Assembly: GCF_030317035.1 (NCBI RefSeq)
Contig: NZ_JASZYK010000001.1
Coordinates: 1,646,760-1,710,759 of the forward strand
DNA from: Variovorax sp. J22G73
GTDB lineage: Bacteria > Pseudomonadota > Gammaproteobacteria > Burkholderiales > Burkholderiaceae_C
Reading direction: 5' to 3'
Length of the DNA: 64,000 nucleotides
Shown: in pieces, positions 36,698 through 46,768 of the stretch
How positions within the stretch are numbered: position 1 is the stretch's first letter
How the letters are laid out: each line of letters starts with the position of its first letter
Position numbers and translations under genes: made by a program
The notes under the pieces: generated by a model
The model's database searches: none
The model's input: only the letters and a program-made list of their open reading frames with translations
What the model was told of the DNA's origin: nothing

Positions 36698-37456
36698 ATG
36701 AAGACCCCGAACCTCCACCTGCTGCACATCGATTCCAGCGCCCGCCCGGGCCGCTCCGGCACCGACCCGCACGGCTCGCACACGCGCCGCCTGTCGGCGC
36801 GCTTCGTCGAGCGCTGGCGCCATGCGCGGCCCGGCGACACCGTCGAGCACCTCGACGTGGGCCAGCACCCGCCCGCGCACGTCGATGGCCGATGGATCCA
36901 CGCCGCGTTCACGCCGCAGGCCGCGCGCGAACCGTGGATGACGCAGGCGCTCGCCGAAAGCGATCGGCTGGTCGACCAGCTCATCGCCGCGGACGTGATC
37001 GTCATCGGCCTGCCCATGTACAACTTCAGCGTGCCCGCGCAGTTCAAGGCATGGATCGACAACATCGTGCGCGTGGGCCGCACCTTCGGGTTCGACCGTT
37101 CGCGCGGCGCGGTGCCGTACTGGCCGCTGCTGGCCGACGCCGGCAAGCGCGTGGTGTTGCTGGGCGCGCGCGGCGACCACGGCTACGACGCGGGCGGGCG
37201 CGCGGCGCACCTGAACCACGCCGAGGCTAGCGTGCGTTCGGCTCTGGGCTACATCGGCATCACGGATGTGTTCGAGGCGGCGGTGGAGTCCGACGAGTTC
37301 GGCGGCGAGCAACTGGCGCAGTCGCTGCGGCGCGCCGAGTCGCGGGTCGATGAGCTGGCGGACTTTCTGCTGCGCTCGGCCATGCGCAGGCAGGCGCCGG
37401 GCCATGCCGTGCTGTCGGGCAGCGTCAGCGCGTCGGCATCAGGGGCGCAGGCCTAG
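36698..37456 (+). CDS. azoR: FMN-dependent NADH-azoreductase-like flavoprotein (module copy 2)
   Basis: A 252-residue paralogue of the protein at 29398, with the same FMN loop (HIDSSARPGRSGTD) and the same LPMYNFSVPAQFKAWIDNIVRVGRTF core. It has an extra ~20-residue C-terminal tail rich in Ser and Ala. The start is uncertain: several ATGs follow each other in frame (36617 to 36698) without a ribosome-binding site, and I use 36698 because it begins the conserved fold. The stop codon overlaps the convergent polysaccharide gene's stop at CTAG (37453-37456). Confidence 0.88.
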   Translation: MKTPNLHLLHIDSSARPGRSGTDPHGSHTRRLSARFVERWRHARPGDTVEHLDVGQHPPAHVDGRWIHAAFTPQAAREPWMTQALAESDRLVDQLIAADVIVIGLPMYNFSVPAQFKAWIDNIVRVGRTFGFDRSRGAVPYWPLLADAGKRVVLLGARGDHGYDAGGRAAHLNHAEASVRSALGYIGITDVFEAAVESDEFGGEQLAQSLRRAESRVDELADFLLRSAMRRQAPGHAVLSGSVSASASGAQA

Positions 37457-40400
37457 CGCGGTGCGGCGGATGAAGCGACCGCGCCCGCAGGCACGTCGTC
37501 CCACCCGCCACCGAGCGCCTTGTAGAGGTTGACCGTGTTCACCGCCTGCTTGAGCTGCAGCTCGATGGCCTGGCGCTGCTCCAGGTACAGCTCGCGTTGC
37601 GCGTCGGCGCCGGCGAAGTAGTCTTCCAGCCCGTTGCGAAAGCGCGTGCGCGAAATGGACGCCACCTTGTCCAGCGCCTGCACGCGCGCTTGTTGCGCGA
37701 CGATCTGCGGACGCAGGTGGCTGTCGGTGATGAGCGCGTTGGCCGTTTCGCGCAGCGCCTGCTGCACCGCGTATTCGTAGCTGGCCATGGCGGCGGCCAG
37801 GCGCTCTTCGTTGGCGCTCAGGTTGGCCGAGCGGCGGCCCCAGTCGAAGATCGGCAGCGACACGCCCAGCACCGTGGCCCAGCTGCGGTTGCCCGCACTC
37901 AGCAGGCTGGAAAACTCGGTGCTCAGCCCGCCCGCCACCGCCGTCAACGAAAAGCTCGGATAGAACGCCGCCTTGGCCGCGCCCACGCCCGAGTTGGCGG
38001 CCTCCACGCGCGCATACGCGGCCAGCAGGTCGGGGCGGCGCTGCAGCAGGCTGGCGGGCAGGCCCACGGGCACGTCGGCCACCGAGCGTTCGGGCCAGGG
38101 GCGCTGCATGCCGATGGTCGGCGGCACGGGCTGGCCGACCAGCACCGAGAGCCACTGCAGGTCTTGCCCCACGCGCATGCGGAACTCTTCGCGCTGCACG
38201 TTGGCGCGCTCCACCAGCGACTGCGAGCGCAGCACGTTCAGGTCCGACGTGCCGCCCACCGTGCGGGCCCGCTGCATGACGCGGGTGCTTTCGCTCTGGC
38301 TGCCGAAGTCGCCCTCGGCCAGCGCCAGCAGGGCACGGTCGGCGCGCAGCGTGAGGTAGGCGTTCGACACCTCGCCCACCAGGTTCATGCGCGCCGCCGC
38401 CAGGTCGCGCTCGCTGGCCAGTGCCTGCGAGCCGGCCTGCTTCACGCCGGCATCGACACGGCCGAAGAAGTCGAGCTCGTACGAGGTGATACCGGCCTGC
38501 ACGGCATAGGTGGTGGCCACGCTGCCCACGCCGTTCAGGGCCTGGTTGCTGGTGACGATGCCGTCGGGCCCCAGCGAGGTGCTCACGTTGCCGCGCCCGA
38601 CGGAGCCGGCCACGCCGATTTCGGGGAACAGGCCGGAGCGCGTGCCGCCGTAGACGGCGCGCGCCTCGCGGGCCTTGGCGGCGTACACGCGCAGGTCGCG
38701 GTTCTGCAGCAGCGCGGTGGCGATCAGGCCGCGCAGTTCGTCGTCGCGCACGAACACATGCCACGCGACCGGCGCCGCGGCGGCGTTGCCCGTGCCCTCG
38801 GCCCACTGGGCGGGCACCACCACGTCGGCCTCCTTCAGCGGCGGCGTGAGGTTGCAGCCCGTGAGCACCAGCACGCCCAGCATCAGCACCATGACCAGCG
38901 GCAGCGGCGCGGCCATGGCGCGGGCAAAGCCGAACGGCAAACGCGCGACACGCGGCATCCGGGGCATCCGCGGCATCCGGCGCACACGGGGCCAGTGCCA
39001 TCCCGCGCTCCCCATGAACGCCAGCGCCGCGCGCCCCGGCTTCACCTGCACGGCCACATGGCTGGGCGGCAGGCTGAACACCAGGCGAATCAGGTGGTCG
39101 TGCAGCACCTCGTCGCGCACGAAGGCGAGCTCCACGCCCGCTGCCGAACGGCCCTTCAGCAGCGCACCGACCCAGCCCACGCGCTCCACGTGCACGTCGA
39201 GCCGTTCGCCCACGGGCATGCGCCGCAGCAGCGCGCTTTCGCGCAGCACCGCGCCGTCGACCGCGATCTGCACGAAGCGCGTCGCGCCCACGCCGGCGGC
39301 GCTGCGCAGCGTGGTGTCGGCGCCGTACGGAAAGCGCTCGTCGTGCTCGGGCCGCGGCCGGTCGATGCAGGCGATGAGCGCGGCCAGGCAGTACAGGGTG
39401 GTGACGATGGTCCACAGCACGTTGAGCATGTCGCCCGTGGTCATGGTGCCCCCGATGGAGCCGATGGCCGCCGCCTCCATCGCCACGATGAGGCCGCCGA
39501 ACACCAGCACCAGGTTCCAGTGCACCACGGTCTTCGAGCGGTCCTGCCCCTTGGCCGTGACCTTGAAAGGCCGCCCGAAGGGCCGCACCAGCGAGGTGAC
39601 GATGGTGCGCGTGACGGCCATGGCCGCCACGATCTGCGTGACCTCCGTGAACACCGGCAGGCAGCGCCACTGGCTGATCCAGTAGGTGTAGCCCCAGAAC
39701 ATCACCAGCGGCGGCAGCCCGTACATCGAGAAGGCGCGCGGCGTGGCGTGGAAGGCCGACACGCCCGTGTACCAGTACAGCGCGGGCGCGGCGAGCATCA
39801 GCAGGATGAAGGGCTTGGTCAGCCAGTGCAGCAGGCCGTGCACGTAGTGCACCCGCGCCGCAAAGCTGTAGCCGCGCCCGCGCAGCGGCCCGTCGCGCAG
39901 CAGCGCCACCTGGATGGTGCCCAGGCACCAGCGGCTGCGCTGGTTGATGTAGTCGACGATGCTGTCCGCCGAGAGCCCGTTCGACAGCCGCTCGTTGAGC
40001 CAGCGCGTGACCCAGCCGAAGCGCATCAGCGTGTAGGTGGTGTAGATGTCCTCGCACACGCTGCCCGTGGGAAAGCCGCCGGCCTCGGTGATGGCGTCGC
40101 GTCGTATCACGAACGAGGTGCCCACGCAGAAGGCCACGTCAGCCGCGTCCTTGGCGGGTTGCAGCACGTCGAAGAACACGCGCTGCTCGTCCACCCAGCT
40201 GTCGGTGGCGCGCAGGTTGTGCTGGATGGGGTCGGCGTTGTAATAGAACTGCGGCGTCTGCACCAGGCCCACCCGGGCCTCGTCGAACAGGCCCAGCGTG
40301 CGGTAGACGATGTTGCGGTGGGGCGTGAAGTCGGCGTCCAGCACCAGGATGAAGGGCGCGTTGGTGGCTGCGGCCGACAGGCGCAGCCCGTTGTTCAGGT

Positions 40401-40950
40401 TGCCGGCCTTGGCGTGCGCGTTGTCGGGCCTGCGCGCGTAGTGCACGCCCTTACGCTCGCAGTAGTCGCGCAGCCAGTCGCGCCGCGTGTCGTCGAGCAC
40501 CCACACGTTCACATGCGGGTAGTCGATGGCCTGCGCGGCCAGGATGGTCTTCTCGAGCACGCCCAGCTCTTCGTTGTAGGTGCAGATGAACACATCGACC
40601 GCTGGCACGTCCGTGCCGCGCGCGCGCAGCGCGGCCTCGCCGCGGTCGGCCTGGGCGTGGTTGTCGCGCCGGCGCGTGAGCATCTGGATGGACAGCAGCG
40701 TGTAGACGATGGCGATCATCTCGAACGCCAGGAACACCCACGACACCAGCGTGCCGAAGCCCAGGTCGGCCGGCGGCAGCGTCTCGGCCAGCCGCCACGC
40801 CACGTAGCGCACCAGCACCAGCGCGGTAAGAAAGCCGAACAGCACGCGGTGCGAGGCGCGGTCGGCGCGGGCGTGGAAGATCATGATCAGCGCCAGCGCC
40901 GCGACCATCAGGTTGACCCTGAACTCGGGCGTGTCCATCAGTTCGAGCAT
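37453..40950 (-). CDS. Cellulose-synthase-like glycosyltransferase fused in frame to a NodT-type outer-membrane efflux lipoprotein
   Basis: One uninterrupted 1165-residue frame. Residues 1-~100 hold membrane helices. The GT2 catalytic core follows with VLDDT (~150), LDADF (~205), CEDIYTT (~300) and QRSRW (~340), the four motifs of processive BcsA-like synthases that polymerise nucleotide-sugars and thread the chain through the inner membrane. More helices run to ~530. A PilZ-like beta-barrel (~540-640) comes next, but its RxxxR and (D/N)xSxxG cyclic-di-GMP motifs are not intact. Then Arg-rich MPRMPRMPR repeats and a lipoprotein signal with lipobox LTGC (Cys699) begin a full-length TolC/NodT outer-membrane factor to the end. 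AGGAG precedes ATG 40950; I see no ribosome site before the second half. It could still be two proteins (internal start near 38916), but no stop separates them. Confidence 0.8.
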   Translation of the reverse strand: MLELMDTPEFRVNLMVAALALIMIFHARADRASHRVLFGFLTALVLVRYVAWRLAETLPPADLGFGTLVSWVFLAFEMIAIVYTLLSIQMLTRRRDNHAQADRGEAALRARGTDVPAVDVFICTYNEELGVLEKTILAAQAIDYPHVNVWVLDDTRRDWLRDYCERKGVHYARRPDNAHAKAGNLNNGLRLSAAATNAPFILVLDADFTPHRNIVYRTLGLFDEARVGLVQTPQFYYNADPIQHNLRATDSWVDEQRVFFDVLQPAKDAADVAFCVGTSFVIRRDAITEAGGFPTGSVCEDIYTTYTLMRFGWVTRWLNERLSNGLSADSIVDYINQRSRWCLGTIQVALLRDGPLRGRGYSFAARVHYVHGLLHWLTKPFILLMLAAPALYWYTGVSAFHATPRAFSMYGLPPLVMFWGYTYWISQWRCLPVFTEVTQIVAAMAVTRTIVTSLVRPFGRPFKVTAKGQDRSKTVVHWNLVLVFGGLIVAMEAAAIGSIGGTMTTGDMLNVLWTIVTTLYCLAALIACIDRPRPEHDERFPYGADTTLRSAAGVGATRFVQIAVDGAVLRESALLRRMPVGERLDVHVERVGWVGALLKGRSAAGVELAFVRDEVLHDHLIRLVFSLPPSHVAVQVKPGRAALAFMGSAGWHWPRVRRMPRMPRMPRVARLPFGFARAMAAPLPLVMVLMLGVLVLTGCNLTPPLKEADVVVPAQWAEGTGNAAAAPVAWHVFVRDDELRGLIATALLQNRDLRVYAAKAREARAVYGGTRSGLFPEIGVAGSVGRGNVSTSLGPDGIVTSNQALNGVGSVATTYAVQAGITSYELDFFGRVDAGVKQAGSQALASERDLAAARMNLVGEVSNAYLTLRADRALLALAEGDFGSQSESTRVMQRARTVGGTSDLNVLRSQSLVERANVQREEFRMRVGQDLQWLSVLVGQPVPPTIGMQRPWPERSVADVPVGLPASLLQRRPDLLAAYARVEAANSGVGAAKAAFYPSFSLTAVAGGLSTEFSSLLSAGNRSWATVLGVSLPIFDWGRRSANLSANEERLAAAMASYEYAVQQALRETANALITDSHLRPQIVAQQARVQALDKVASISRTRFRNGLEDYFAGADAQRELYLEQRQAIELQLKQAVNTVNLYKALGGGWDDVPAGAVASSAAPR

Positions 40951-42305
40951 GGTGTTTCTCCTGAAGGGGCCGTGGTGGCGTTGGGGGTGACGACGTTGCC
41001 GGTGAACGGGTTCCAGCCCGTGGCCGCGAGCGCGATCCAGGCGGTGGCGCCCAGGTGGGGCCAGCGGTAGTAGAAGAAGTCGGCACCCACCGAGTCGGGG
41101 CCGCTGGCCAGCCCGGTCGAGATGCGCGGGCTCGGCGTGGCGTAGTACAGGCCGTTGTCCGCGCGCTGCGCGGCCAGCAGCTGCCACAGCGCATCGGGCG
41201 CCGCGCCCTTCACGGCCACCAGCGTGGCGGCGGCCTGCGCGCTGCCTTCGGTCCAGATGCCGTCGGGCTGCTGCGAAAAGCCGTAGCCGTCGCCGAAGCG
41301 GTGGTTGCGCTCCACCCACGCCAGGCCCGCGCGCCACGCGCACCCGCCCCGCGGTGCCGCGAGCAGCGGCCACAACTGCGCATCGAGGCCCGAGCCCGTG
41401 GTGGCGATGGTGGCGCCGTCGGCCTTGGTGCCGATGTAGAAGCGCTGCTCGCTTGTGCTCCACATGCGCGAGACAAAGGCCAGCGCCACGTCCGCCTGGC
41501 GCGCCTGCTCGGGCCGGGCGCTGCCGCGCGCGGCCCATGCGGCGGCCATGGCGATGTCGATGTTGTGCTCGGTCGATTTCCAGGTCTGCGCGGTTTGCGC
41601 GTTGTCCCAGCCGTACCAGCCGCCCTGGTAGCCGTCGGGGTCGACGGTGGCGCGGGCGCGCTGCTCGATCCACCCGAGCAGCCTTGCCGTCGCCTCGGTG
41701 TAGCGGGGCGAGGGCGAAGGCAGGGCGCGGCTCACGTTCAGCAGCAGCAGCGCGGCCCATGCCACGTTGCCGGTGGCGGTGCTCACCTGGTAGGCATCGG
41801 CAATCCACAGGTTCTTGCCCGCGTCCCAGTAGCCGGCGAGCACCGGCTTGCCGTCGGCCATCGGGCCGGCGCGGTAGCCGTTGCGCACGCGCCCGTCGGT
41901 GTAGAGCGGGTCGCGTTCCACGGCGAGCGCCACGGCGTCGGCGATGCGCGTGGCCGAGGCGGTGTCGCCGCAGGCCAGCAGGGCGATGCCGGCCAGCGCG
42001 TTGTCGTACACGAAGGCCACGTTCGCAAGGCTGGGCGACAGCTCGGGCACGCCTTCGATGGCGCGCTCGGTGCGGTAGCTGGACAGCAGCAGCGCGGACG
42101 ACGGATCGCCGCGCGCGTCGGTAGCGACGGCGCGGCGCAGGCCCTCGCAGCTTTGCTGCGCAAGCGACTGCTGCACTTCGGTCGCGGCCATGGTGCGGTT
42201 GGAGGTGAGCGCGGTGAAAGCCACGGCACAGAGCGCGACCAGCGCGACACCTGCGACAGCCGCTGGCAACGCGCCGGCGCGCAGAAAGAGAGGAGGGCGG
42301 CTCAT
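40938..42305 (-). CDS. Periplasmic six-hairpin glycosidase-like protein
   Basis: A 455-residue protein with an N-terminal membrane anchor or signal (LPAAVAGVALVALCAVAF). The rest is rich in aromatic-flanked helical repeats typical of (alpha/alpha)6-barrel glycosidases. Acidic candidates occur in FVYDNALAG, STEHNIDIA and WTEGSAQAA, and sugar-stacking Trp/Tyr in GWYGWDNAQ. I cannot name a GH family with certainty; GH8-like cellulases of cellulose operons are the functional analogue. It overlaps the synthase start by 13 bases (40938-40950) and follows the adaptor gene by 47 bases, so it is the middle gene of one operon. It may trim or release the polymer in the periplasm. Confidence 0.72.
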   Translation of the reverse strand: MSRPPLFLRAGALPAAVAGVALVALCAVAFTALTSNRTMAATEVQQSLAQQSCEGLRRAVATDARGDPSSALLLSSYRTERAIEGVPELSPSLANVAFVYDNALAGIALLACGDTASATRIADAVALAVERDPLYTDGRVRNGYRAGPMADGKPVLAGYWDAGKNLWIADAYQVSTATGNVAWAALLLLNVSRALPSPSPRYTEATARLLGWIEQRARATVDPDGYQGGWYGWDNAQTAQTWKSTEHNIDIAMAAAWAARGSARPEQARQADVALAFVSRMWSTSEQRFYIGTKADGATIATTGSGLDAQLWPLLAAPRGGCAWRAGLAWVERNHRFGDGYGFSQQPDGIWTEGSAQAAATLVAVKGAAPDALWQLLAAQRADNGLYYATPSPRISTGLASGPDSVGADFFYYRWPHLGATAWIALAATGWNPFTGNVVTPNATTAPSGETPCSN

Positions 42306-42352
42306 CGCGGTCTTGTCGCTATGTCGGGGGCTGTGTCGATGCTGTATCGGGG

Positions 42353-43687
42353 CTACGACGCCAGCCTGGCCGATACCACCTTGCCGGGCGCGCACAACCC
42401 GCGTTGCTCCAGCCATTCCGGGGAGTCCGATTCCACATGGGCGACCGCGTACACCGAGCCCTGCTCCGCGAAAGGGAAGGGCACGGCGTAGCGGCTCTGG
42501 AAGTCTTCCGGCGCGACCGGCAGGATCTGCGTGACGCGCGCCGACACCTCGGGGCGGCTGTCGTCGGTCTTCACCGCGATGGTCGAGCCCATGTTCAACC
42601 GCTTGGCCACCCGCGGCGGAAACACCGCCACCACCTCGACGCGGCTGCAGTCGATCATGCGCACCAGCGTGGCGCCCTGCGGCACGTAGCTGCCCTGCGG
42701 CATGAGCACGGTGTGCACCTGCCCGGCCTGCAGCGCGCGCACCTCGAAGGCGGCCATGCGGTCGATGCGGCGGCGCTCGTCGGTCTCCAGCGTGCTCACC
42801 TCGCGCAGCTGCTGCTGCAACGCTTCGCTGTCGTGGCGGGCGCGCTCGATGTCGCCGGCAAGCGTCTCGCGGCGGTTGGCCAGGGTCTGGTACACGTTGC
42901 CCCCGCTGCCGCCCACGAACACGCCGCGGCTGGCGCTGGCCACGCTCTGGCCCAGCCCCGCGTAGGCCTGCTCGGCCACCGCCGCGCTGGCGCGCGAAAT
43001 GCTCAGCTGCGCCTGCGCCGCGTCCATGGCCTGCGGGCTCACGGCGCCTTCGTCGAGCATGGCGGAGGTGTGGCGCACCTTCAGCTCCTGCTCGGCCACG
43101 TTGCTCTGGGCCACGTCGCGCTGGCGCTGCGCAACCTGCCAGGCGTCGCGCGTCTGCGCCATCGAGGCCGAGCGGTACAGCTTGCCCTGCTGCTCGACGA
43201 ACTGCAGTTCTTCGGTGGAGGCGCTCAGCTGGTTGGCCAGTTGCGCCACCTGGCTTTGCAGCGCCAGGCGCTGCGTGGTGAGCGTGGTGAGGATGTCGCG
43301 GTTGATGGTCGGGTTCTGCACGGTGGCGACCACCGCGCCCGCGTCGACCTTGTCGAGCGCGCGCACCGTCATCTGCGTGACCACGCCGCTGATGGGCGAT
43401 GTCACCAGCACCACCGGCGCCTGCAGCACCGTGCGCGTGGCCTGGCGCGACACCAGCGGCTGGATCAGCGTGGTCACCACCAGCCACAGCACGAAGGCGA
43501 GCAGGGCGTAGCCCGCCACGCGCGGCACGATCGACTCCGGCGTGGAGGCGGGAGCAGCATGATGGGATCCGCCGGGCGGTGTGCCAGGTGGTGCGCCCCC
43601 GGCGCCCTTGCGCCTGAGGCGCTGCAGCCAGCTGGCAGCTTCGGCATCGGCGACTTCGTTCGCTTCCCGGACAGTGCTTGCGTTCAT
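42353..43687 (-). CDS. HlyD-family periplasmic adaptor (membrane fusion protein)
   Basis: A 444-residue adaptor. Residues 1-50 are cytoplasmic with a Gly/Pro-rich stretch. One membrane helix follows (VAGYALLAFVLWLVVTTLI). The split lipoyl/barrel-sandwich domain (VLVTSPISGVVTQM ... FEVRALQAGQVHTVLMPQGSYV) surrounds a long alpha-helical hairpin with heptad repeats (about residues 120-290). A beta-barrel domain closes the protein. Such adaptors dock onto TolC-type channels. It is the first gene of the operon leading to the synthase-channel fusion, so it probably bridges inner and outer membrane parts of the same complex. Similar HlyD-type partners accompany the BgsA mixed-linkage glucan synthase of Sinorhizobium meliloti. 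Confidence 0.88.
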   Translation of the reverse strand: MNASTVREANEVADAEAASWLQRLRRKGAGGAPPGTPPGGSHHAAPASTPESIVPRVAGYALLAFVLWLVVTTLIQPLVSRQATRTVLQAPVVLVTSPISGVVTQMTVRALDKVDAGAVVATVQNPTINRDILTTLTTQRLALQSQVAQLANQLSASTEELQFVEQQGKLYRSASMAQTRDAWQVAQRQRDVAQSNVAEQELKVRHTSAMLDEGAVSPQAMDAAQAQLSISRASAAVAEQAYAGLGQSVASASRGVFVGGSGGNVYQTLANRRETLAGDIERARHDSEALQQQLREVSTLETDERRRIDRMAAFEVRALQAGQVHTVLMPQGSYVPQGATLVRMIDCSRVEVVAVFPPRVAKRLNMGSTIAVKTDDSRPEVSARVTQILPVAPEDFQSRYAVPFPFAEQGSVYAVAHVESDSPEWLEQRGLCAPGKVVSARLAS

Positions 43688-43774
43688 GTGCGCCTCGCAA
43701 TAGATGACGTTGGTGACCTAAAGAAACCGTCGTCTCCGCTGTCGCGGCACATCTTTGGGGCGTGCCATCTGCTG

Positions 43775-43791
43775 TTGCTGCAATGCAGCAA
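43775..43791. promoter_or_regulatory. Palindromic operator in the polysaccharide/cyclase intergenic region
   Basis: TTGCTGCA-A-TGCAGCAA is a perfect 8-bp inverted repeat around one central base. It abuts the -35 box of the rightward promoter and lies 88 bases before the adaptor start, so one bound dimer could affect both directions. Confidence 0.6.
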
Positions 43792-43821
43792 TAGACATGC
43801 CAAAAGTTAACAATTTATGCT
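43792..43821 (+). promoter_or_regulatory. Promoter of the diguanylate cyclase gene
   Basis: TAGACA (43792-43797), an 18-base spacer and TATGCT (43816-43821) match the sigma-70 pattern. The 5' untranslated region would be about 135 bases. No equally clear promoter is seen for the leftward adaptor gene. Confidence 0.5.
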
Positions 43822-43963
43822 TACATGAGCAACAGGATGTACACGTTGCGGCGCAACCGAAAACGGCCGGCGGACGTGGCGCCGACACTTCCTCGCGCGG
43901 TGGAACCCGCCGATACTCGAGTCGACAACTCACGCCGGCAACGCACCGGCATCTGAAAGTTCA

Positions 43964-46768
43964 ATGAACGCCACCGGACCCTCGACATTCCGCTTCGCCC
44001 TGCACACCCGTCTCAGCCTGGGCGTGGCAGCCCTGGTACTGGCAGCGACCTTCGGCATCGCGACCTACGCGATGCACCTCGTCAAGAGCAGCATGCAGGC
44101 GTCGATCGCCGCGGAAGAACTGGCCCGCGTGAGCGGCATTTCAGACGCCATAGACCAGAAGCTTGGCAGCCGCCGCATCCTGCTGCAGACCTTCGCCGAA
44201 AGCGTGCAGGCGCAGGCGTTTCCCGACGCCGAGCCGCTGCAGGCCTTCCTGGAGCGCCACGCCTCGCTGCGCCAGGCCTTCGACAACGTGGCCTTCCTCG
44301 ACAGCGACGGCAAGCTCGTGGCCAACCTGAACGGCGCGCTCGTCAACGGCAGCGTCAACGTGAAGGACCGCGACTACTTCCAGCAGACCGTGGCGAAGAA
44401 GGCCGGGCTGGTTTCGCAGCCTTATCGCAACCGCCTGAACGGGCTGGCGCAGGTGGCCATCACCCAGCCGGTGCTCGACGCCGCGGGCGACGTCAAGTTC
44501 GTGATTTCCGGCGCCATCAACCTGAAGGACCGCAACATCCTCGGCGCGCTGGGCGACGTGCGCTTCGGCAAGCACGGCTACCTGTTCATCACCACCACAG
44601 ACGGCGTGGTGGTCGACCACCCTGACCTCGCGCGCATCCTGAGCGTGGTGCAGCCCAAGGTCGGCAACGCCGAGATCCTGCGCGCCATGGCCGGCTTCGA
44701 GGGCACAGGCGAGGGCGTCGACGAGACCGGCGTGCCCAGCCTGTATGCGTTCGACCGCACCGAGCAGACCAACTGGGTCGTCGGCGCCATGTACCCGCGC
44801 GCCGAGGCCTTTGCCCGCGTCGACGCCATCGAGCGCAACGCCTGGCTCGGTGCGCTGGTGCTCGCGCTGACCGCCGGCGCGCTGGCGTTCGTGGTGGTGC
44901 GCCGGCGCCTGAAGCCGCTGGCCGAGCTGCACGGCCACATGCAGTCGGCGCGAGAGAGCGCCGCCGGCGCGCAGGCACCGCGTGTTGCGAGCCACTACGC
45001 GCCCGACGAGATCGGCGACCTGTCGCGCACCTTCGACGAGCTGATGGCCCAGCGCCACGCCAGCGAGCTGAGCCTGGCGCACAGCGAGGCGCAGGTGCGC
45101 ACCATTGCCGACAGCATTCCGGCCATGGTCTCGCACGTGGACGCCTCGCTGCGCTACACCTTCGTGAACGAGCGCATCCGCGCGCTGCACCACCACGCGC
45201 CGCTGGTCGGGCGCGCGATGCCCGAGGTGCGCGGCGCCGACTTCGCCGTGGTCGAGCCGTATTTCGAGCGCGCGCTGGCCGGCGAAACCGTCATCCTCGA
45301 GAAAGCCGGCGACCCCGCGCTGGGCATCGGCGAGCGCACGTTCCAGGCGCACTACATTCCCGACCTCGACGCCGACGGCGTGGTGCGCGGCGTGTTCTCC
45401 ATGACCTTCGACATCACCGAAGAAGTGAACGTCCGCAAGGCCGTGGCCGAGAAGGAAAAGCGCCTGCGCGACGTGACCGACAGCATTCCGGCGCTGGTGG
45501 GCTACTTCGACCGCAACCAGAACTGCCTGTTCGGCAACATCCGCGCGCGCCAGATGGCCGGCCTGGGCGACAAGCCCATCGAGGGCACCACGCTGCGCTC
45601 GGCGCTGGGCGATGAAATGTACGAGCAGCACAAGCCCTACCTGCCGGTGATGCTGTCGGGCAAGAAGGTGCGCTTTCCGGTGCGCGCGCCGGTGCACGGC
45701 AAGCAGGGCTACTTCCAGGTCAACCTGATTCCCGACACCAACGCGCGCGGCGAGGTGGTGGGCTTCTATCTGATGAGCTTCAACATCACGGCGCTGAAGG
45801 AGGCCGAGCTGCGCCAGGCCGAGAGCGAGCTGCGCCTGCGCACCATCACCGACAACCTGCCCGCGCTCATCACCTACATCGACCGCGAGGAAAAGATCAC
45901 CTTCGCCAACGCCACCAGCCGCGACTGGCTGGGCCTCGACCCGATGCAGGTGCTCGGGCGCCACCTGCAGGACGTGGCCGGCCGCGACGTGTACCTGTCG
46001 CGCAGGCCCATGCTGGCGCGCGCGCTGGGCGGAGAAAAGGTCGAGTTCGAGGCGCGCACGCAGCGCAAGGGCTTCGAGCGCATCACGCAGGTCATCTACG
46101 TGCCCGACGTGCGGGCCGACGGCCTCACGCACGGCATCTTCTCGCTGGCGCTGGACATCACCGCGCTGAAGCTGGTGGAGCACCAGCTCATCGAGCTCGC
46201 GCGGCTGGACACGCTCACCGGCCTGCCCAACCGGCTGGCCTTCAACGAGCACCTGCCCGACGCCGTGTTGCGCGTGCGGCTCACGGGCAACGCCATGGCG
46301 CTGATGTTCCTGGACGTGGACCATTTCAAGACCATCAACGACACCTTCGGCCATGCCGTGGGCGACGCGGTGCTGGTCGAGTACGCGCGGCGCCTGCTGG
46401 CCAGCGTGCGCGGCACCGACAAGGTGGCCCGGTTGGCCGGCGACGAGTTCGTGCTGGTGCTGGAGAACCTGGCCGGCCCGCAGGCCGCGGCCACCGTGGC
46501 CGAGAAGGTGGTGGAGCGCATCAACGGCACGCCCTTCGTGGTCGAGGGGCAGACCATTTCGGTCACCACCAGCGTCGGCATCGCCTTTCACTGGGCGGCC
46601 GACTCGGCGGCCACGGCCGAAGAGCTGCTCGCGCGGGCCGATGCGGCGCTCTACAACGCCAAGGCCGCGGGGCGCAACCGCTTCGAGTTCTTCCTGTCGG
46701 CCGGCGTGCCGCGGGACCCGCTGATGCTGGGCGGGGAAGTGGCCGATCCGGCGCCGGAAGGTAAGTAG
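43964..46768 (+). CDS. Membrane diguanylate cyclase with dCache sensor and three PAS domains
   Basis: A 934-residue enzyme that makes cyclic di-GMP from GTP. A membrane helix near residue 15-35 and another near 300 flank a periplasmic double-Cache sensor domain (~45-295). HAMP-like sequence follows (RRRLKPLAELHGHM). Three PAS domains span about residues 375-745, each opening with a TIADSIPAMV-, VTDSIPALV- or ITDNLPALI-type segment. The GGDEF domain covers ~755-910: its active site reads AGDEF, an active variant, and an RGTD product-inhibition site lies five residues upstream. No EAL domain is present. It diverges from the polysaccharide operon, which makes it the likely local second-messenger source. 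Confidence 0.94.
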   Translation: MNATGPSTFRFALHTRLSLGVAALVLAATFGIATYAMHLVKSSMQASIAAEELARVSGISDAIDQKLGSRRILLQTFAESVQAQAFPDAEPLQAFLERHASLRQAFDNVAFLDSDGKLVANLNGALVNGSVNVKDRDYFQQTVAKKAGLVSQPYRNRLNGLAQVAITQPVLDAAGDVKFVISGAINLKDRNILGALGDVRFGKHGYLFITTTDGVVVDHPDLARILSVVQPKVGNAEILRAMAGFEGTGEGVDETGVPSLYAFDRTEQTNWVVGAMYPRAEAFARVDAIERNAWLGALVLALTAGALAFVVVRRRLKPLAELHGHMQSARESAAGAQAPRVASHYAPDEIGDLSRTFDELMAQRHASELSLAHSEAQVRTIADSIPAMVSHVDASLRYTFVNERIRALHHHAPLVGRAMPEVRGADFAVVEPYFERALAGETVILEKAGDPALGIGERTFQAHYIPDLDADGVVRGVFSMTFDITEEVNVRKAVAEKEKRLRDVTDSIPALVGYFDRNQNCLFGNIRARQMAGLGDKPIEGTTLRSALGDEMYEQHKPYLPVMLSGKKVRFPVRAPVHGKQGYFQVNLIPDTNARGEVVGFYLMSFNITALKEAELRQAESELRLRTITDNLPALITYIDREEKITFANATSRDWLGLDPMQVLGRHLQDVAGRDVYLSRRPMLARALGGEKVEFEARTQRKGFERITQVIYVPDVRADGLTHGIFSLALDITALKLVEHQLIELARLDTLTGLPNRLAFNEHLPDAVLRVRLTGNAMALMFLDVDHFKTINDTFGHAVGDAVLVEYARRLLASVRGTDKVARLAGDEFVLVLENLAGPQAAATVAEKVVERINGTPFVVEGQTISVTTSVGIAFHWAADSAATAEELLARADAALYNAKAAGRNRFEFFLSAGVPRDPLMLGGEVADPAPEGK

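Follow-up and report, generated by a model that had tools for sequence, protein, structure and literature searches.

We analyzed a stretch of 64,000 nucleotides (hereafter the window, meaning the whole stretch of DNA) from contig NZ_JASZYK010000001.1 of Variovorax sp. J22G73, a genome of 8.39 Mb in 35 contigs. A minus-strand operon in this window encodes an HlyD-family adaptor, a six-hairpin glycosidase-like protein, and a single frame joining a glycosyltransferase family 2 (GT2) synthase to an outer-membrane channel. Comparative analysis suggested that these products probably build a β-glycan and pass it over both membranes, with the synthase-channel chain being cut at an internal lipobox cysteine. 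The most unusual feature of the operon is the joined frame, to which an earlier note on this DNA gave only brief mention.

A synthase and an outer-membrane channel in one frame

The joined frame (positions 37453–40950, minus strand) comprises 1165 codons. Its BcsA-like synthase part (residues 1–520; 39391–40950) matched Pfam Glyco_trans_2_3 (2.7e-21), gave BcsA structures as the best matches in the Protein Data Bank (PDB), and contains DD154, DxD207, CED301, QRSRW341, and the gating loop FKVTAK. It is followed by a cytoplasmic PilZ-fold domain (residues 537–629; 39064–39342) with degenerate cyclic di-GMP (c-di-GMP) motifs, by an internal hydrophobic helix (residues 678–696) with the lipobox LTGC, in which Cys699 precedes an Asn (38854–38919), and by a NodT/OprM-type channel part (residues 700–1150; 37501–38853). 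The channel part matched Pfam OEP (2.7e-40) and belongs to the NodT/OprM family by NCBIfam TIGR01845 (305.8 bits versus a cut-off of 210.05, covering profile positions 3–460 of 460); Foldseek returned OprM for it, from a weak model. Hydropathy analysis placed three helices before and four after the GT domain, so that the PilZ end is predicted to be cytoplasmic and the signal helix to be directed outward. Around residue 301 (40048–40050), where BcsA has its TED motif, Variovorax and Dyella have CED, locus L080 has TED, and Agrobacterium and Nitrobacter have SED.

Comparison across the genus indicated that the synthase-channel joint is real. One open synthase-channel frame was found in all 14 Variovorax loci among those located through the glycosidase gene (locus L033 is cut by a contig end). 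A probe of the junction, for which up to 17 of the best first-pass candidates per genome were scored, gave matches at 34 places in 33 of 100 Variovorax genomes, all without an internal stop; 33 of these places span the probe (one from residue 2), and one ends at residue 391 of 431. The glycosidase gene occurred in the identical 33 genomes, and the remaining 67 yielded neither sequence. When residues 640–1165 were searched against long proteins only, 7997 candidates were scored and 53 matches obtained, of which 41 were GT2-OEP fusion clusters; the organism names attached to such fusions were Variovorax and one Ramlibacter metagenome-assembled genome. In the nine Dyella/Frateuria loci, separate genes encode the synthase and the channel, the latter with a start, signal, and lipobox of its own (signals judged by eye).

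The DNA of the linker behaves as coding sequence. It measures 51 to 70 codons between two landmarks across loci, with the frame open throughout. In the 25 codons from the end of the PilZ domain to the signal, differences among seven loci numbered 36/36/161 at codon positions 1/2/3, in pairs that are not independent and after omission of pairs of unequal linker length; this third-position excess resembles that of the flanking coding DNA. Since the GC content of the linker (0.65 to 0.78) makes open frames cheap, the codon-position pattern and the genus-wide count outweigh the absence of stops. An assembly frameshift or a lost stop codon as the origin of the fusion was rejected, given the same frame in all 14 of these Variovorax loci, the 41 fused clusters, and the stop-free junctions. 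By title and abstract, the literature searched, with few subscription journals covered, contained no GT2-channel fusion and no internal lipoprotein signal in such a protein.

Two side observations concern the same region. A short in-frame Arg-Met-Pro repeat (38945–38985) extends the linker of the window relative to the other rows of a synthase-channel alignment of 20 rows (18 of them from the 41 fused matches), and L025 is similar. The Variovorax genome G464 contains two copies each of the glycosidase gene and the synthase-channel joint.

The internal lipobox and the fate of the chain

The lipobox cysteine was retained at all 34 places (the window and 33 others), where position −3 was Leu or Val in 29 and Thr in 5. 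The following residue was Asn in 32 and Ser in 2 of the 34, and Asp occurred in none of the rows read. A scan of 56 sequences (15 loci and 41 protein clusters, partly the same sequences), which picked the best Cys downstream of the hydrophobic stretch, located the cysteine in all 56 and a strict lipobox in 51. In the window frame, the signal-like helix and lipobox expected of a NodT/OprM lipoprotein are internal and not N-terminal, and cleavage at this site is a prediction. The lipobox pattern, the Asp(+2) retention rule, signal peptidase II, globomycin, and Lol sorting form the general background of bacterial lipoproteins.

OprM-type channels are anchored at the outer membrane by their N-terminus. 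Because the channel begins right after the lipobox, an uncut chain would tether this N-terminus to the inner membrane, a conflict that cutting at Cys699 would resolve. We therefore consider it close to an even chance that the chain is cut at the internal lipobox and the channel released, so that the synthase and its exit pore would be made one-to-one and assembled at one spot via the HlyD adaptor. A precedent exists in Bradyrhizobium, whose cytochrome b/c1 precursor is reported to be cleaved at such a signal within the chain; our literature search did not list it.

BcsA-like synthases extrude their polymer through their own membrane channel. In the proposed mechanism, the synthase would polymerize a UDP-sugar, probably UDP-glucose, and extrude the chain in this way, and the HlyD protein would replace BcsB and dock tip-to-tip on the outer-membrane channel. 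The glycosidase would be periplasmic and would trim or clear the polymer as BcsZ does. The internal helix, once inserted, would be handled as a lipoprotein signal, being lipidated and cut by signal peptidase II; the cut channel would then move to the outer membrane, leaving the synthase and its PilZ domain in the inner membrane, and cutting would yield synthase and channel in equal numbers. Cleavage at the lipobox would make the chain a natural polyprotein linking two envelope membranes, with a built-in one-to-one stoichiometry.

The single stop-free frame would also fit a fusion that stays uncut and functions as one synthase-channel protein across the envelope. We regard this as improbable, since few residues separate the helix from the channel fold, whose relatives carry the N-terminal anchor described above, and since an uncut fusion gives no reason for retention of the lipobox cysteine at every place.

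The main rival to cutting is internal initiation before the signal helix, by which both the fusion and a free lipoprotein channel would be made and the free one would work. At 32 of the 34 places, an ATG, GTG, or TTG codon lies in frame 12–30 codons upstream of the cysteine. Of the 25 rows in the larger Variovorax branch, 20 have a start codon exactly 22 codons before the cysteine (GTG in 14, ATG in 6); both observations tell against cutting. Some of these start codons at −22 are accompanied by a weak Shine-Dalgarno-like string, and a protein begun at such a codon would open with an ordinary lipoprotein signal, like the Dyella channel. However, codon −22 is GCG or GTA in the remaining five rows of that branch, the window's own branch shows no common place for a start, and two places (L094 and L099) contain no start codon at 12–30. 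In the junction probes, moreover, Val is most often encoded by GTG (896 of 1381), and the third-position excess in the linker, together with the lack of stops at all 34 places, indicates that the long frame is translated through regardless of an internal start. The GTG or ATG shared in one branch nevertheless adds weight to internal initiation, at a small cost both to cutting and to the overall interpretation of the operon; we consider internal initiation unlikely but a serious contender.

Partner genes and gene order among relatives

The adaptor gene (42353–43687, minus strand; 444 aa) matched Pfam HlyD_3 (1.3e-12), and its product has a hydrophobic anchor at the N-terminus (judged by eye) and a helical hairpin region that includes a TolC-tip-like segment (residues 200–232). 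HlyD-type adaptors can, as hexamers, connect a partner in the inner membrane with an OprM/NodT channel trimer. The TolC-docking motif of adaptors is given as RxxxLxxxxxx[ST] in the accessible part of the source (PMC3391258). In alignment, RxxxLxxxxxxS was exact at the hairpin tip in all nine Dyella/Frateuria adaptors, and RxxxLxxxxxx[ST] was present in six of nine other HlyD-GT2 loci, including Sinorhizobium meliloti BgsB (in the form RLT). Motif conservation supported TolC-type docking for the family, with weaker support for the window's own adaptor.

The glycosidase-like gene (40938–42305, minus strand; 455 aa), whose product has an N-terminal signal-like segment (by eye), had zero Pfam or NCBIfam matches, and assignment to a named glycoside hydrolase (GH) family was ruled out on this ground. 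Its alphaproteobacterial homologues gave sub-threshold family scores, such as GH127, and a search from one of them returned 1059 relatives; the 120 names listed among these were hypothetical or carried an unrelated lyase label. A sequence search against the PDB gave chance matches only. The predicted structure (pLDDT 87, pTM 0.87) has 12 main helices in the (alpha/alpha)6 arrangement of the six-hairpin glycosidase superfamily and resembles six-hairpin sugar enzymes; its Foldseek matches include the endo-1,4-glucanase 4q2b, which we take to be a BcsZ. In a structure-guided alignment of 35 rows, hand-picked for spread as were our other such alignments and including 22 of the 120 listed matches and 12 loci, the invariant acids included Asp101, Asp137, Asp170, Glu246, Asp250, Asp308, and Glu353.

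Within the window, 47 nt separate the HlyD stop from the glycosidase start, and the glycosidase and synthase frames overlap by 13 nt. The corresponding overlap is 4 nt in eight of the nine Dyella/Frateuria loci and 1 nt in the remaining one, and these short overlaps point to translational coupling of the glycosidase and the synthase. The description of the adaptor, the glycosidase-like protein, and the synthase-channel frame as one leftward operon in the earlier note was borne out by profiles and predicted structures. Comparison with relatives also supported its proposal that one locus encodes polymer synthesis, passage through the periplasm, and exit across the outer membrane, using parts of the HlyD/TolC type.

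The order HlyD-glycosidase-GT2-channel occurred in 23 of the 31 loci located through the glycosidase (14 in Variovorax, eight in Dyella, and one in Frateuria), a recurrence beyond what chance would give. The same four-gene order, with a separate lipoprotein channel, was found in one genome of another Burkholderiales family. Conservation of gene order, set as a test in the earlier note, was therefore observed in Variovorax, in Dyella/Frateuria, and in this further genome. In a synthase tree of 22 rows, which was midpoint-rooted with BgsA on a long branch and included eight of the 23 four-gene loci, the synthases of Variovorax, Dyella/Frateuria, Nitrobacter, Agrobacterium H13-3, and Phyllobacterium formed one group (12 rows, 100/99). 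All 12 adjoin a glycosidase gene, which lies after the synthase in Agrobacterium and before it in the others. Outside this clade were HlyD-GT2 loci with no glycosidase match, including that of S. meliloti BgsA, and the BcsA-type rows formed a third group. Synthase identity was 50–53% to the nearest alphaproteobacterial relatives and 31–33% to the BcsA-type rows.

Eleven Rhodanobacteraceae loci (L037, L040, L042–L049, and L053) lie at a common ybeY/corC site. Seven of them contain all four genes, three contain the glycosidase only, with the adaptor, synthase, and channel absent together, and one has no synthase and a truncated adaptor and channel. This pattern is consistent with joint loss of the adaptor, synthase, and channel at the site. 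The site resembles a natural deletion series, running from four genes down to a lone glycosidase. At L038, a scrap of the adaptor remains before the glycosidase. The contig of L042 is labelled Candidatus Eremiobacteraeota, has Dyella-like neighbors and a decayed operon copy, and is probably mis-binned.

Among 398 Pseudomonadota genomes sampled, with the four best first-pass candidates scored per genome, the glycosidase was found in 10. G000 and G384 had all four genes, G166 and G258 had the adaptor, glycosidase, and synthase, the junction probe also found a match in G031 (glycosidase and synthase-channel joint), and the match in G222 lies at a contig end.

Several observations weigh against the interpretation of the operon as a concerted glycan export system. 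In four of these 10 genomes (G213, G450, G170, and G419), no partner gene was found near the glycosidase, and the Dyella-type loci L038, L046, L048, and L049 likewise have a glycosidase with none of the other genes nearby. The alphaproteobacterial relatives with adaptor, glycosidase, and synthase had no channel match in the stretches fetched. The strict motif RxxxLxxxxxxS was found in none of the 15 Variovorax adaptors, the window included, in which a basic residue lies one place earlier. Isomerases and terpene cyclases also adopt six-hairpin folds, so that hydrolysis by the glycosidase-like protein is a prediction. The full-length synthase-channel model was poor (pLDDT 46, pTM 0.32), and its PilZ and GT parts alone were used. 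The shorter junction match (G024, L091), from a copy that is typical in other respects, has a frame break within the channel part, beyond the joint, which may be natural or a sequencing error.

The family labels of the channel raise the alternative that the channel and adaptor form a small-molecule efflux pump lying beside a glycan synthase by accident. NodT/OprM labels are those of efflux families, and a Cupriavidus taiwanensis protein (P0162), by eye very similar in sequence to the separate channel of the genome from the other Burkholderiales family, is named a drug efflux lipoprotein. This alternative appears highly improbable, as the operon contains no RND, ABC, or MFS pump gene, the gene order is conserved over two orders, and the synthase and channel share one frame.

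Relation to known systems and to c-di-GMP signaling

The closest published proposal in the literature searched appears to be the cyanobacterial XcsAB-TolC system rather than Bgs. This cellulose system was reportedly described by Maeda et al. in 2018. It is presented in the accessible part of a 2025 review as a PilZ-type cellulose synthase, an HlyD-like adaptor, an endoglucanase, and a TolC channel that are together proposed to form a single export path; the synthase, adaptor, and endoglucanase genes are clustered in two cyanobacteria, TolC is encoded elsewhere, and the review regards the model as unconfirmed (PMC12430437). The Variovorax operon likewise encodes an HlyD-like adaptor, a predicted hydrolase, a cellulose-synthase-like GT2, and a TolC-family channel, a likeness drawn from the description and not from an Xcs sequence. 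In contrast to Xcs, as far as that part of the review goes, the Variovorax channel lies within the operon and in the synthase's own frame, and the PilZ motifs for c-di-GMP are missing in the window's branch.

Alternatively, the operon could simply belong to the Bgs family of mixed-linkage glucan systems, activated by c-di-GMP, with an optional channel. The combination of an HlyD-like protein with a BcsA-like synthase is that of BgsBA, BgsB has the tip motif, and the window synthase is 38% identical to BgsA over 530 residues. However, no glycosidase or channel match was present beside BgsA in the stretch searched, and in the midpoint-rooted tree, with BgsA on its long branch, the window synthase fell in the glycosidase-bearing clade described above, apart from BgsA. 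BgsA is reported, in the accessible part of the source, to have no PilZ domain, with C-BgsA binding c-di-GMP without PilZ motifs (PMC5567048), whereas the predicted structure of the window synthase retains a PilZ fold. We consider plain Bgs membership rather unlikely. The accessible text of a paper on Rhizobium etli Bgs names the HlyD-like protein as the likely channel former and does not contain the term "outer membrane" (PMC9495663).

With Bcs systems, the operon shares the GT2 core and a BcsZ-like endo-1,4-glucanase among the Foldseek matches of the glycosidase, but BcsB and BcsC are absent from it. The synthase also fell short of the equivalog TIGR03030 for UDP-forming cellulose synthase (345.8 bits versus a cut-off of 699.1). 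Canonical BcsC and BcsB, the only such matches in the genome, lie ~52 kb away (L060; G000:C1:1624602-1632416), with a BcsA homologue in the same 20-kb stretch, and would provide a second cellulose route. The designation of the operon as self-contained in the earlier note is qualified by this canonical pair in the same genome.

Other fusions offer partial parallels. Zymomonas reportedly has BcsAB and BcsZC fusions, with no synthase-to-channel fusion in the accessible part of that paper (PMC7112194). Among proteins P0164–P0173, an RND pump, an HlyD adaptor, or a histidine kinase is fused in frame to OEP, in one contig apiece, so that these may be artefacts; a lipobox-like Cys was seen by eye at five of six joints read, P0164 being the exception. 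They resemble the Variovorax frame in having an inner-membrane protein followed by OEP and differ in that the Variovorax joint is shared by 33 genomes of the genus sample. Taken together, these comparisons suggest that the operon is not Bcs and not clearly Bgs, and that it would work in the manner of the XcsAB-TolC model, its probable polyprotein being the unusual addition. It assigns HlyD-linked synthases a channel, tied to the synthase by gene fusion, and does so in a genus of which strains are cultured. If the proposed cutting and release of the channel are correct, the operon would identify by genetics the type of outer-membrane channel used by HlyD-linked glucan synthases such as Bgs and Xcs.

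The PilZ domains of relatives differed in their c-di-GMP motifs. Both motifs were at the aligned place in all four BcsA-type control rows and, by eye, in the genome from the other Burkholderiales family; in Dyella/Frateuria, the second motif was present in nine of nine rows and RxxxR in eight of nine. Nine rows of the larger Variovorax branch keep the second motif only, and all six rows from the window's branch lack both motifs at that position. Pfam PilZ matched three Dyella/Frateuria rows (1e-9, 1.1e-9, and 3.7e-8) and L028 (1.3e-5), with no match in the window. These data suggest that c-di-GMP control via PilZ was probably lost in the window's branch. Control through PilZ motifs was accordingly rejected for the window, although BgsA shows that motif-free binding is possible.

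A diguanylate cyclase gene (43964–46768, plus strand) diverges from the operon, as the earlier note had described. It matched dCache_1 (54 bits versus a cut-off of 45), three stretches of PAS_4, and GGDEF (6.6e-44); its active site reads AGDEF, with an RxxD five residues upstream. The suggestion that this cyclase controls the operon was not supported: it adjoins the operon in one of 14 Variovorax loci, and the cyclase was rejected as a fixed partner on this count, to which the missing PilZ motifs of the window's branch may be added. Other GGDEF matches near the operon were confined to L024 and L027, where they were weak and far downstream. The HlyD-GT2 locus of Allorhizobium (L065) lies among EAL, GGDEF, and PilZ genes, which suggests c-di-GMP control in that branch.

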